From a virus: a stretch of 22,329 nucleotides of DNA. The notes beneath the pieces are model-generated. The model was not told where the DNA came from and ran no database searches. It saw only the letters and a list, made by a program, of their open reading frames with translations. Numbering within the stretch: the first letter of the stretch is position 1; the number at the start of each line of letters is the position of its first letter. Both the position numbers and the translations under genes were made by a program. The stretch covers positions 1 through 22,329 of the IMG/VR virus record IMGVR_UViG_3300025872_000336. One strand, written 5' to 3'. Of the stretch, positions 10,107-14,027 are shown one piece after another.

Positions 10107-10135
10107 TTTATTGTTGACTGTCGTCTTGTTGACAA
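10107..10135 (-). promoter_or_regulatory. Candidate sigma70-type promoter for the small-gene operon
   Basis: On the minus strand, TTGTCA (10135-10130, 5 of 6 to the -35 consensus) is followed after 17 nt by AATAAA (10112-10107, 4 of 6). Transcription would start near 10100, about 35 nt before the first ATG. The AT-rich context and lack of another promoter-like pair nearby support it; evidence is by eye only. Confidence 0.4.
10111..10133. repeat. Direct repeat TTGTTGAC x2, possible operator
   Basis: Two identical copies of TTGTTGAC at 10111-10118 and 10126-10133, 15 nt start to start. They overlap the candidate -10 and -35 elements, the usual place for repressor sites. The 15-nt spacing is not a full helix turn multiple. 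No repressor gene has been linked. Confidence 0.4.
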
Positions 10136-10185
10136 TCTTCTACTTCTCTTTACTTTAGACATAACTTCCCCAAGGGTGGTAGCAC

Positions 10186-10416
10186 TCACCTTACCCAGCA
10201 GGGGTCTCTTCTGGATGTTCCCCGCCTAGTACAGCCTAAGCCAGCGATTCTCTCCACCTCTTGCTTGTCCCACCCATGTACAAGAGGCTTAGTCCAGTAC
10301 CTCACTGACAGTCTGGATCGGCATGAAACGGGGTGTTTCGCCAGCCGGTGTTTACTTCCGCGCAACCCATGCAGGTTCTTAATAACGCTCGGAGTACGGT
10401 CCGGTAGAAAAAGAAA
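10186..10416. other. Gene-free region with several hairpins (possible structured RNA or origin)
   Basis: No convincing gene in this 230-nt stretch. It holds many self-complementary segments. CCTCTTG/CAAGAGG lies inside CTAAG/CTTAG inside GTAC/GTAC (about 10228-10304). GGC-AT-GAAAC/GTTTC-GCC is at about 10319-10341. GGGG/CCCC is near 10204-10226, AACC/GGTT near 10366-10379 and CGGA/TCCG near 10390-10403. Stems are short but stacked in one nested set. It is richer in G and C than its flanks. Either a structured RNA or an origin could explain it. A frame on the minus strand ending at 10186 is open through the region but has no ATG. Confidence 0.4.
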
Positions 10417-10502
10417 AAGCCGTTAAGGATGTACCCTGGTGGTAGTTCCCTTCAAGAGAAAAGGGACAGGGCACATTCCTAACGGCTTACATCTGCTACC
10501 AC
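10417..10502 (-). terminator. Long terminator hairpin with potential pseudoknot
   Basis: Arms 10417-10432 and 10473-10488 pair over 15 of 16 positions (one A-C mismatch, one G-T). Inside, CCCTG (10434-10438) pairs with CAGGG (10467-10471) and TCCCTT (10447-10452) with AAGGGA (10461-10466). On the minus strand the stem is followed by TTTTTCTTTTT, so it terminates the 117-aa gene that ends at 10521. The 8-nt bulge GTGGTAGT (10439-10446) is complementary to CTACCAC at 10496-10502, just outside the stem, allowing a 7-bp pseudoknot. Confidence 0.7.
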
Positions 10503-10520
10503 ACAGACAAACTAATCTTA

Positions 10521-10874
10521 TCAGATCTCCACAACCTTGCAAGTCCAACCTTCTTTCAACTTACCCCATCCATGAACCTCTATCTTCCAGCCTGCTCGCA
10601 AGATAGCCGGAAGATGTTCGCTCTCTGCAATCTTCTTCACTCTAGCCGAGACATTACCTCTTGAGGTCGTCTGAACTAAAAGGGTCTCCTCGTCCTTGAG
10701 ACAAAGTATGTCGCCTATTCCAAACAAGTCCTGGCGTATACGAGCCCAAGGGTTCCAGTGCTCGACGATCTGACACAAATAACCACGTTCACGAAGCGCA
10801 GCTAAAGACCTCTGAGTAGGACTTACAGACGAACGGCGTTTCTTTTTGGTATCAGCGGCAGAGATTGTCGTCAC
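10521..10874 (-). CDS. Putative PD-(D/E)XK-fold nuclease-like protein
   Basis: A 117-aa protein, start GTG at 10874 with no clear SD. A helix SPTQRSLAALRERGYLCQIV (18-37) is followed by RQDLFGIGDILCL (47-59) and ETLLVQTTS (63-71), then a helix, AGWKIEVHGWGK and a strand. This is the layout of restriction-like folds (helix, strand with Asp, strand with ExK). Asp55 is a likely metal ligand, but the ExK place reads Gln68-Thr-Thr, so activity is uncertain. I recall similar proteins with QTTS in phages. It is transcribed alone on the minus strand, divergent from the plus-strand block. Confidence 0.5.
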   Translation of the reverse strand: MTTISAADTKKKRRSSVSPTQRSLAALRERGYLCQIVEHWNPWARIRQDLFGIGDILCLKDEETLLVQTTSRGNVSARVKKIAESEHLPAILRAGWKIEVHGWGKLKEGWTCKVVEI

Positions 10875-11527: not shown

Positions 11528-11591
11528 CTGGGCACTATGCGCGCTATTGGGGATTTGCTACGGAACACTGCTCTACCTGTTCATAAAGTAA
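11460..11591 (+). CDS. Nested membrane peptide (43 aa)
   Basis: ATG at 11460 with SD GAGGG 7 nt upstream, in a different frame from the 44-aa gene it overlaps. The N-terminus MTTNNSWNNRSTNLTKYK is polar and basic. Residues 23-42 (DWALCALLGICYGTLLYLFI) are a clear single transmembrane segment. It ends 11 nt before the next gene's ATG. The good SD and the well-formed polar-then-membrane architecture are unlikely by chance. Possible roles: host inner-membrane factor or superinfection exclusion; none shown. Confidence 0.5.
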   Translation: MTTNNSWNNRSTNLTKYKITRSDWALCALLGICYGTLLYLFIK

Positions 11592-11602
11592 CGGAGCCAA
11601 AC

Positions 11603-12133
11603 ATGAAATTCAACGAACTTAGAAAGATCAACGTAACCGAGAAGGTCGAGAAGAAAAACGGCCTTTCTTACCTCTCTTGGGCCTGGGCCGTGGATACATT
11701 GTTGCAACACGATCCTACTGCAACTTGGGAGTACAAGCCTTACCAAACCTGGAATGACACGGTTATGGTGTTCTGCGAGGTAAAAGCATTCGGCGTATCT
11801 CGCACTGCACAACTGCCTGTCATGGATCACCGCAACAAAGCGATCTCTAACCCTGACGCTTTCCAGGTCAACACGGCTATGCAGAGGTGTCTAGCTAAAG
11901 CTATTTCGCTCCACGGTATCGGGCTCTACATATACGCTGGAGAGGATCTGCCAGATGAAGATAAGCCTTCCGTAGACGACCACATAAAAACGCTATCAGA
12001 GGCGAAAACAGTTGATGATCTGAAAGCAGCATTCACAGGCGCGTACAAAGTGTTTAAGAACGATCCTGATGCTATTAAACAAATCGACGCGGCTAAGGAA
12101 CAACGCAAGAAAGAACTGACGGAGATCAAATGA
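11603..12133 (+). CDS. Single-strand annealing protein-like (DUF1071)
   Basis: A 176-aa protein. The start is ATG 11603 with GGAG 7 nt upstream, not the frame's earlier ATG. The N-terminal half matches DUF1071: INVTEKVEKKNGLSYLSWAW, an acidic Q/W stretch, VNTAMQRCLAKAISLHGIGL (89-108) and YIYAGEDLPD. DUF1071 proteins are grouped with phage single-strand annealing proteins, which pair complementary DNA strands during recombination. The YqaJ exonuclease and NinB downstream fit a complete annealing-type recombination module. The C-terminal third is charged and helical. Confidence 0.85.
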   Translation: MKFNELRKINVTEKVEKKNGLSYLSWAWAVDTLLQHDPTATWEYKPYQTWNDTVMVFCEVKAFGVSRTAQLPVMDHRNKAISNPDAFQVNTAMQRCLAKAISLHGIGLYIYAGEDLPDEDKPSVDDHIKTLSEAKTVDDLKAAFTGAYKVFKNDPDAIKQIDAAKEQRKKELTEIK

Positions 12134-12432
12134 GTCAGATTCTCTCCATTGCCAAGCAATCAGGGGTTCTCATCTCACACCGAGATGAGTTCCTGAAGTC
12201 GGTGGAAAAGTTTGGCCGGTTGATGCTCAACAAGTCTAAACCGCTAACGCCAACACAAACGGCTTACTTAGAAGTACTCGATGACTGGATGTCTCTAAAC
12301 GATCTGGCTAACAAATTTGGTTGCACACCACAGAATGCGCTAAAAATGATTCGTGCTCTGGAGGCTCGCAAGTTGGTAACGAAAGAAAAACTTTACAGGA
12401 AATCCTGGGCCTACTACTACAAGAGAAAATGA
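12130..12432 (+). CDS. Winged-helix DNA-binding protein (100 aa)
   Basis: Begins MSQILSIAKQSGVLISHRDE. Residues 39-97 form a winged helix: LTPTQTAYLEVLDDW, MSLNDLANKFGCTPQNALKMIRALEARKLVTKEKL and a tyrosine-rich wing. ATGA overlap with the annealing-protein gene. MarR-like small regulators look similar. It may regulate the block or bind DNA during replication; no target visible. Confidence 0.65.
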   Translation: MSQILSIAKQSGVLISHRDEFLKSVEKFGRLMLNKSKPLTPTQTAYLEVLDDWMSLNDLANKFGCTPQNALKMIRALEARKLVTKEKLYRKSWAYYYKRK

Positions 12433-12782
12433 ACCTAAACACATTCGAAGAAGGACTGCTGGACTCGATCCAGACAGAGCGCTGCAAGAAACTGCTTTGG
12501 TCTGTCATCCAACTTGCAGTCGATGATGCTTGCAAAGCACCCTACAAAACTAGACCGACAGACGAAACGATTACCGCACTTAGGTTCCTATTCGGAGACC
12601 TCCACGAGTCAGGGCTCGACAGCTACCTGATGTGGCTTGACGTTGACAGCAAAGAGTTCAAGAGACGCATGGTCAATGCCATGTTCTCAGAGCGTCACGA
12701 TAAGTTTACTGACTTCGAGAGACGAGCCTTTCGAGCCAACTACAACTGGTATCTGAGAAATGAGATCAATCCTAACGACTGA
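12429..12782 (+). CDS. Conserved phage hypothetical protein (117 aa)
   Basis: Start at ATG 12429 (ATGA overlap); the frame is open further upstream to 12321, which would overlap the winged-helix gene by over 100 nt. Protein begins MNLNTFEEGLLDSIQTERCK and includes AVDDACKAPYKTRPTDETIT and LDSYLMWLDVDSKEFKRRMV. I recall related phage hypotheticals but no function. Overlaps NinB by 23 nt. Confidence 0.7.
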   Translation: MNLNTFEEGLLDSIQTERCKKLLWSVIQLAVDDACKAPYKTRPTDETITALRFLFGDLHESGLDSYLMWLDVDSKEFKRRMVNAMFSERHDKFTDFERRAFRANYNWYLRNEINPND

Positions 12783-13179
12783 GACTGACCGTAGGAGGGT
12801 CATAGAGGCCATAGAAGCCACGGAACTTGGTTACATGGTAACTATTACCAAACCACCTCGAACAGCGGCTCAGAATCGGTTTTATTGGTCGATCCTGACA
12901 GCTTGTGCGGAACAACTTATGGGCCAGCAATACACCCAGGACATCTGGCACGAGTGGGCTAAGACAAGGTTTCTTCCCTCTCGTGTTGTTGAACTTCCTG
13001 GAGGTATCGTAAAAGAGATCGAGCCTTCGACTGCTTCGCTTACCGTGTCAGAGTTTTCAGACTTAGTAGAGCAGCTTCTACAGTACGCAATCGAGAAGGG
13101 CTTAGTCTGGACAGATGAAATGAAGGACGCTGAACTTGACTTAAGGAAGATCAATGTACTCAAACAAAAAGTTGCTTGA
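12760..13179 (+). CDS. ninB: NinB-family recombination protein
   Basis: A 139-aa protein with ETDRRRVIEAIEA (7-19), LGYMVTITKPPRTAAQNRFYWS (23-44) and a C-terminal segment on SEFSDLVEQLLQYAIEKGLVW (97-117). The RTAAQNRFYW signature and the helical C-terminus match NinB, the lambda Orf recombination mediator that loads on SSB-coated ends and substitutes for RecFOR. It overlaps both neighbours. Placement between the annealing protein and the exonuclease fits this role. Confidence 0.85.
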   Translation: MRSILTTETDRRRVIEAIEATELGYMVTITKPPRTAAQNRFYWSILTACAEQLMGQQYTQDIWHEWAKTRFLPSRVVELPGGIVKEIEPSTASLTVSEFSDLVEQLLQYAIEKGLVWTDEMKDAELDLRKINVLKQKVA

Positions 13180-13447
13180 GGCTTGCAGGCATCTGCCTTG
13201 CGGATCTTGTTTCTGTGAAGATGGAACTGTAGTCGCTGCTCATAGGAACCAAGGCAAAGGTATGGGCATTAAAGTATCTGATGCTTTAGTAGCATCTCTT
13301 TGCTACAAATGCCACTCATACTTAGACCAGGGAAAAGAAATGTCTCGTGAAGAACGACGAGACTTCTGGAACCAAGCGTACATAAACACAATGCAAGCAA
13401 TGATCGAACGAGGGATACTAAAGGTGCAACATGGAACAAAGAACTGA
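13154..13447 (+). CDS. DUF1364 (YbcO-like) putative nuclease
   Basis: A 97-aa protein. Cys11, Cys16, Cys19 and Cys21 at the N-terminus, His30 in VVAAHRNQGKGMGIKVSD and Cys50-x2-Cys53-His54 in LCYKCHSYLDQG fit the DUF1364 pattern (YbcO and relatives), a zinc-bound HNH-like fold found in lambdoid recombination regions. It would cut DNA during recombination or replication, by family inference. It overlaps NinB by 26 nt and the exonuclease by 17 nt. Confidence 0.8.
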   Translation: MYSNKKLLEACRHLPCGSCFCEDGTVVAAHRNQGKGMGIKVSDALVASLCYKCHSYLDQGKEMSREERRDFWNQAYINTMQAMIERGILKVQHGTKN

Positions 13448-14027
13448 TGATTGGTTTAAGGCAAGGTTAGGGCATCTAACCGCTTCACGGGCCTCAGACG
13501 CGCTTGCGAAACCTGGAACGGCTACACGTAGGAACTACCAGATTCAACTCGTCACAGAGCGTCTGACGGGACTACAAAGCGATTCATTCACGAATGCAGC
13601 TATGCAATGGGGTACGGAACAAGAACCCGTTGCTAGGGCAGCCTACGAAGTCCATACAGGCCATTTCGTCGAGCAGACAGGGTTTCATACTCACAAGTCG
13701 ATAAAGTGGCTTGGAGCGTCTCCTGATGGCTTTGCAGGGTCGGGGTTGATCGAGATTAAGTGCCCTAACTCAAACACTCACGTTGATTACTTACTAGCTA
13801 AGGAGGTTCCCACTAAATACAAACCACAGATGCTCACTCAAATGCTCGTCACGGGACGTACTTGGTGCGACTTTGTGTCGTTCGACCCAAGACTGCCTGA
13901 ACATCTTCAACTATTCGTCGTTCGTTACGAGCCAAAGCCGGAAGAGCTAACCAAGATCGAGGCTGATCTGGTTGCCTTTCTCAACGAAGTTAATCAAATG
14001 GAAGAATCGCTATGCCAAAAGAACTAA
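13431..14027 (+). CDS. YqaJ-type viral recombinase exonuclease
   Basis: A 198-aa lambda-exonuclease-like protein. Early basic part MEQRTDDWFKARLGHLTASR (1-20) fits the usual N-terminal RxxxW/SR pattern. GTEQEPVARA (61-70) holds the conserved Glu63/Glu65. Asp99 in ASPDGF and Glu108-x-Lys110 in LIEIKCPN are the metal-binding catalytic residues; all appear intact. It would chew one strand from a double-strand end to make ssDNA for the annealing protein. It overlaps the next gene by 16 nt. Confidence 0.9.
   Translation: MEQRTDDWFKARLGHLTASRASDALAKPGTATRRNYQIQLVTERLTGLQSDSFTNAAMQWGTEQEPVARAAYEVHTGHFVEQTGFHTHKSIKWLGASPDGFAGSGLIEIKCPNSNTHVDYLLAKEVPTKYKPQMLTQMLVTGRTWCDFVSFDPRLPEHLQLFVVRYEPKPEELTKIEADLVAFLNEVNQMEESLCQKN

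Follow-up and report, generated by a model that had tools for sequence, protein, structure and literature searches.

The hairpin at 10417-10502 of the window (the whole stretch of viral DNA that was analysed, 22,329 nucleotides, IMG/VR record IMGVR_UViG_3300025872_000336) is probably the 3' half of a stand-alone phage RNA gene of ~100 nt, in which a knot is tied to the terminator and whose product acts in trans. The RNA would belong to a widespread and apparently undescribed kind of structured RNA from uncultured phages, with unusually strong covariation and a predictable start and end. It would also show an intrinsic terminator welded into a pseudoknot that has kept its length and pairing through sequence turnover. 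The parts of the proposed unit and its upstream neighbour are as follows, in the direction of transcription.

10521-10874, minus strand: 117-aa gene, upstream neighbour outside the unit ("nuclease-like" was an impression of the preliminary description)
10537-10542, minus strand: -35-like hexamer TTGCAA, seen in the sequence, within the end of the 117-aa gene and 16 nt 5' of the -10 hexamer
10515-10520, minus strand: -10 hexamer TAAGAT, part of the extended -10 TGATAAGAT, which runs into the upstream gene's stop codon; RNA start predicted at 10508
10504-10508, minus strand: P1 5' strand GUCUG, the predicted 5' nucleotides of the RNA; pairs with 10491-10495 and covaries
10496-10502, minus strand: A, GUGGUAG, 7 nt of the 8-nt P1 loop and 5' strand of the pseudoknot, from covariation
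10491-10495, minus strand: P1 3' strand CAGAU, from covariation
10467-10488, minus strand: S1 5' strand (11 bp, A·C mismatch, 10 bp), from folding and covariation
10447-10466, minus strand: S2, inner 7-bp hairpin, whose length and loop vary among relatives
10439-10445, minus strand: A', CUACCAC, the bulge and 3' strand of the pseudoknot, from covariation and a stem-independent scan
10417-10438, minus strand: S1 3' strand, from its length across relatives
10408-10418, minus strand: U-run UUUUUCUUUUU, terminator-like RNA 3' end; the T-run is kept in relatives not chosen for it
10399-10403, minus strand: P0 3' strand CGGAC, alternative partner of GUCUG at 10504-10508, which needs a transcript past the U-run
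10125-10398 (borders approximate), minus strand: D block of type D1, ~250-300 nt, structured and conserved, from linkage and covarying helices

The minus-strand RNA of 10400-10520 was found to have a fold energy of -51 kcal/mol (z = -6.5). In this fold an 11-bp and a 10-bp helix flank an A·C mismatch, and the inner hairpin of 7 bp and a bulge of 8 nt lie beyond them. The preliminary description had given a 16-bp arm with one mismatch; the single mismatch holds, and folding corrects the length to 21 bp. Its 8-nt bulge with 7 bases complementary to 10496-10502 was borne out by the sequence, in which CUACCAC (10439-10445) can pair with GUGGUAG at every base. The latter sits as the loop of a 5-bp hairpin, P1 (10491-10508), which was missing from that description, and the A:A' helix already appears in the nested fold of a 74-nt intermediate. 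As in an intrinsic terminator, a stable GC-rich hairpin is followed by a U-run; this region consists of two runs (10414-10418 and 10408-10412), and its first two U are shared with the end of S1. A simple terminator scan did not list the site, probably because of the bulge.

Comparison with relatives revealed that the loop and the bulge covary. In IMG/VR at least 80 close relatives of the upstream 117-aa gene were found, and the same architecture followed the gene in more than half of them. Compensated pairs include GTGGTAG/CTACCAC, GTGGAAG/CTTCCAC, GTAGAAG/CTTCTAC, GTCGAAG/CTTCGAC, and others. Among 59 distinct relatives, the whole structure was 94.5% paired, compared with 79.2% in shuffles and 32-51% when slid, and 0 of 500 shuffles reached the observed values. 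The pseudoknot helix alone was 95.9% paired in the same set, with double changes in 5 of its 7 pairs. Two pseudoknot positions contain all four Watson-Crick types, namely alignment columns 10/81 (AU 24, GC 17, CG 10, UA 5) and 12/79 (CG 21, AU 20, UA 9, GC 6). Moreover, all seven A:A' pairs form in 112 of the 113 aligned relatives, which carry 33 different 7-mers. Compensatory changes at 10439-10445 and 10496-10502, on which the preliminary description had made its claim depend, are thus abundant, and the U-run hairpin with a pseudoknot-forming bulge survives with their support. By this comparative evidence the complementarity is confirmed to lie far beyond chance. A helix that crosses the hairpin carries compensatory changes, as in a pseudoknotted RNA, and the pairing is, judged from the aligned sequences, real, a change on one side being matched on the other.

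Pattern searches extended these results. A DNA pattern for one stem version matched at least 120 stretches, a few of them chance coding matches, and the window's own stem version was rarer (17 stretches); a scan for variants of one stem version gave chance matches only. In a second scan the 5' hairpin and the T-run alone were queried and the stem was left out. A stem lay beside the T-run in 72 of the 93 matches scored. The exact 7-mer complement was present in 71 of these 72 and in 0 of the 21 matches without a stem. The stem sequence was far more diverse in the second set, so the central CUCAUGC/GCAGCAG seen in the first set is not shared by all. Five relatives (L095, L112, L142, L148, and L185) lack P1 and have a longer A:A' helix, of about 8-12 bp by eye; in L142 the extended A:A' reads GTGCCGACACAC/GTGTGTCGGCAC. 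Another relative, L304, resembles a decayed or recombined copy in which the 5' hairpin and half of S1 remain. The S2 loop and the linker, which were checked for a conserved unpaired sRNA seed, vary in alignments A1 and A3.

The pattern of mismatches indicates which molecule and strand are under selection. Helix cells contain G·U 117 times and A·C 14 times (p = 2e-21, with cells treated as independent and the sequences being related), an asymmetry that implies selection on the RNA of the minus strand; as read from the alignments, the direction is clear. It was considered whether the element could act as DNA instead, as a cruciform or a recombination or nuclease site. Such a role would agree with the near absence of G·U from the kissing helix (1 in 413 cells of alignment A1, whereas P1 and S1 use G·U) and with the HNH genes that often come next. 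It is nevertheless very improbable, given the strand-specific G·U over A·C asymmetry in P1 and S1 and the directional nature of the U-run and the promoter. For the scarcity of G·U in the kissing helix, strict helix geometry may be the reason, and no firm explanation is offered beyond it.

Further analysis of the upstream region revealed a promoter motif at a fixed position. Among 78 distinct upstream sequences, some of which come from closely related phages, a T stands 7 nt upstream of the element's first G in 95%, and a -10-like hexamer was found at -12 or -13 in 58. Many unrelated upstream contexts also have TTGACA/TTGCAA-like -35 hexamers at the usual spacing, and the upstream sequences fall into 42 groups. 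In the window the promoter motif, which the preliminary description had not mentioned, is of the sigma70 type and overlaps the stop codon of the 117-aa gene, whose protein has no Pfam or PHROG match. Because the promoter position is fixed and the upstream sequences are many and unrelated, the element is very likely its own transcription unit, separate from the mRNA of the 117-aa gene. The RNA is predicted to run from 10508 to the U-runs of 10408-10418, a length of ~100 nt. Given the own promoter motif and the 42 unrelated upstream groups, the earlier view of the hairpin as no more than the end of that gene (there called nuclease-like) is not supported. Resistance to exonucleases or protein binding, proposed with that view for the pseudoknotted end, is a possible candidate role. 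A hairpin and U-run right after a gene is also what an ordinary terminator of the upstream gene would look like, with the complementarity arising by chance. This reading is hardly credible, as it is refuted by the covariation and opposed by the fixed promoter motif, the stem-free scan, the 42 upstream groups, and the linked D blocks.

The dimensions of the fold suggest how the loop may meet the bulge. The S1 3' strand, counted to the U-run, measures 18-21 nt in 109 of 111 relatives, and S2 and the linker vary; no correlation was found between linker length and S1 length among relatives. A constant S1 length would be expected if P1 has to reach the bulge at the far end of S1, a distance of about two helical turns. 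By a rough count this reach is tight, since P1 lies a few nt from the base of the ~20-bp S1, and it would seem to need side-by-side packing of the helices, an open lower S1, or intermolecular pairing. In the last case, loop and bulge would pair between two RNA molecules. A homodimer of this kind would give the same covariation and would account for P1 being close to the base of S1 with the bulge far away at its top. It is unlikely, however, because S1 is held at ~20 bp and S2 and the linker are variable, which suggests a constraint on reach within one molecule, and because the five P1-less relatives have ~8-12 bp of A:A' complementarity (by eye) in the same place. Pairing within one molecule is the reading kept below.

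Downstream of the unit, linked blocks of ~250-300 nt (D) were found in 149 of 153 cases. The linkage was obtained by lenient chaining, which makes D a mosaic of subfamilies (37, 13, 12, 10, 8, 7, 6, and smaller). The largest set, D1, contains covarying helices, and the single-sequence folding energies of D are mostly unremarkable; D is probably a second structured RNA domain. A group I intron or another ribozyme known to Rfam was ruled out for D, as the D blocks scanned gave no match. On the same strand, D is often followed by an HNH gene; a DNA methyltransferase or a PAPS-reductase-like gene stands there in some cases. HNH endonuclease genes follow D in L001, L007, L099, L110, and L146, with an apparently shortened one in L097; a C5 methylase (L114) and a PAPS-reductase-like protein (L049) are among the other cargo. 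In the window the gene after D is replication-initiation-like (phrog_270).

A second pairing partner for the 5' end was found before D. This pairing (P0) exceeds permutation, and its pair 5 covaries (UA 11, CG 7, GC 5; p = 0.0002), with relatedness of the sequences weakening both permutation tests. P0 is seen mainly beside D1-like blocks and is less strict than A:A'; if real, it would take the place of P1 in read-through RNA. A cis-acting leader, likened to an attenuator or a put-type antitermination RNA, could be built from these parts, the pseudoknot competing with closure of the lower terminator stem and so setting read-through into D and the next gene. The element does start at its own predicted promoter start and end in a U-run with D nearly always next, P0 offers an alternative fold for read-through RNA only, and same-strand HNH, methyltransferase, or PAPS-reductase-like genes often come after D. 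Against this, the downstream genes differ widely, when a leader for one gene should travel with that gene, and some flanking genes point in the opposite direction. The leader is accordingly a serious alternative and still rather unlikely, and the function would be either that of a trans-acting RNA or that of a leader with a regulated terminator.

The element occurs in many uncultured water phages, and each of 18 viral contigs (12-57 kb) has a single copy; additional rows were antisense hits of the same place. Blastn against 50,697 phage records returned short chance matches or nothing, and by this search the element was not found in cultured phages. A pattern scan of 84,980 bacterial genomes with one stem version gave 3 matches, about the number estimated by chance, all within ordinary genes and with the remaining structure absent. 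The nearest cultured relatives of the window's terminase and of one relative's capsid protein lie among three genomes, those of the Methylophilales phages Venkman and MEP301 together with MW202481.1. The terminase shares 60.5% identity with Venkman's and the capsid protein 61% with MEP301's, and it is a guess that the hosts are related to Methylophilales. A covariance model of the element gave no match in any of the three genomes. In Rfam scans at gathering and permissive settings, neither the element nor any D block scanned matched a family, and the literature searched, with subscription journals mostly outside its coverage, held no description. The window also encodes recombination genes at 11537-14027 on the plus strand, namely a Sak annealing protein, NinB, and a YqaJ exonuclease (Pfam).

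Occurrence once per phage and in unrelated places makes a trans role the most likely one. In the favoured reading, a sigma70-type polymerase would start at the first G of P1, and P1 and the inner hairpin S2 would form as the RNA emerges. The 7 nt of the P1 loop would then pair with the 7 nt just 3' of S2, after which the last strand would close the ~20-bp S1, and the U-run end would complete an intrinsic terminator. The kissing helix would link the terminator stem, at its top, with the 5' end and so give a compact knot. Together with the promoter and the D block this knot would make up a larger unit, as its 5' domain; part of the transcription would read through into D, and the unit would act in trans as a structured RNA, with or without a protein. 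More tentatively, the unit may represent a new class of phage noncoding RNA, a single gene of ~350-400 nt in which the 5' loop-bulge pseudoknot in the terminator chooses between a ~100-nt terminated RNA and a long RNA with the D block, which would act in trans during infection.

Several known systems resemble parts of this unit. Intrinsic (rho-independent) terminators have the same GC-rich stem directly followed by a U-run. Here, in contrast, the stem is fixed at ~20 bp, a conserved bulge is paired to the loop of an upstream hairpin, and the whole belongs to its own promoter-RNA-terminator unit. The lambda 6S RNA, from PR' to tR', likewise combines a phage promoter, a short RNA, and a terminator; it heads the late operon and depends on Q, whereas the present unit is found in many places. 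HDV-like ribozymes have the strand order helix 1 5', helix 2 5', hairpin, helix 1 3', helix 2 3', with J4/2, including the catalytic C, and P1.1 between the 3' strands of P1 and P2. The likeness is one of fold topology only, and a ribozyme of this kind was ruled out, as 0-1 nt separate A' from the S1 3' strand, leaving no J4/2 catalytic segment, and as there is no Rfam match. A type III toxin-antitoxin RNA (ToxI-like) was also rejected, since there are no tandem repeats and no toxin family among the neighbour proteins scanned. Most of the remaining relatives of the 117-aa gene carry another element in the slot. In L005 (2095-2162) it is the int-alpA RNA (RF02996, 42.8 bits), and in L080 (4378-4445) the same family scores just below the gathering threshold; in these related phages it stands in place of the unit behind the same gene, with a different sequence.

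The PeSL cassettes of T4-like phages consist of a promoter and a stem-loop between genes in shuffled regions, at high density (cited in PMC4503421). Both are small promoter/stem-loop cassettes between phage genes. The present unit differs in that the promoter comes first, its own RNA holds the stem-loop, and a covarying pseudoknot and a D block are added; identity with PeSL, which has many copies per genome, was ruled out by the single copy in each of 18 contigs. The put RNA of HK022, ~70 nt long, lies right after a phage sigma70 promoter (putL) and forms two packed stem-loops (PMC9378689). In architecture the present element is alike, as a predicted RNA directly after a sigma70 promoter whose stem-loops would pack together. 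It differs from put in ending in a terminator-like stem and U-run, and in occurring in many places rather than in early operons.
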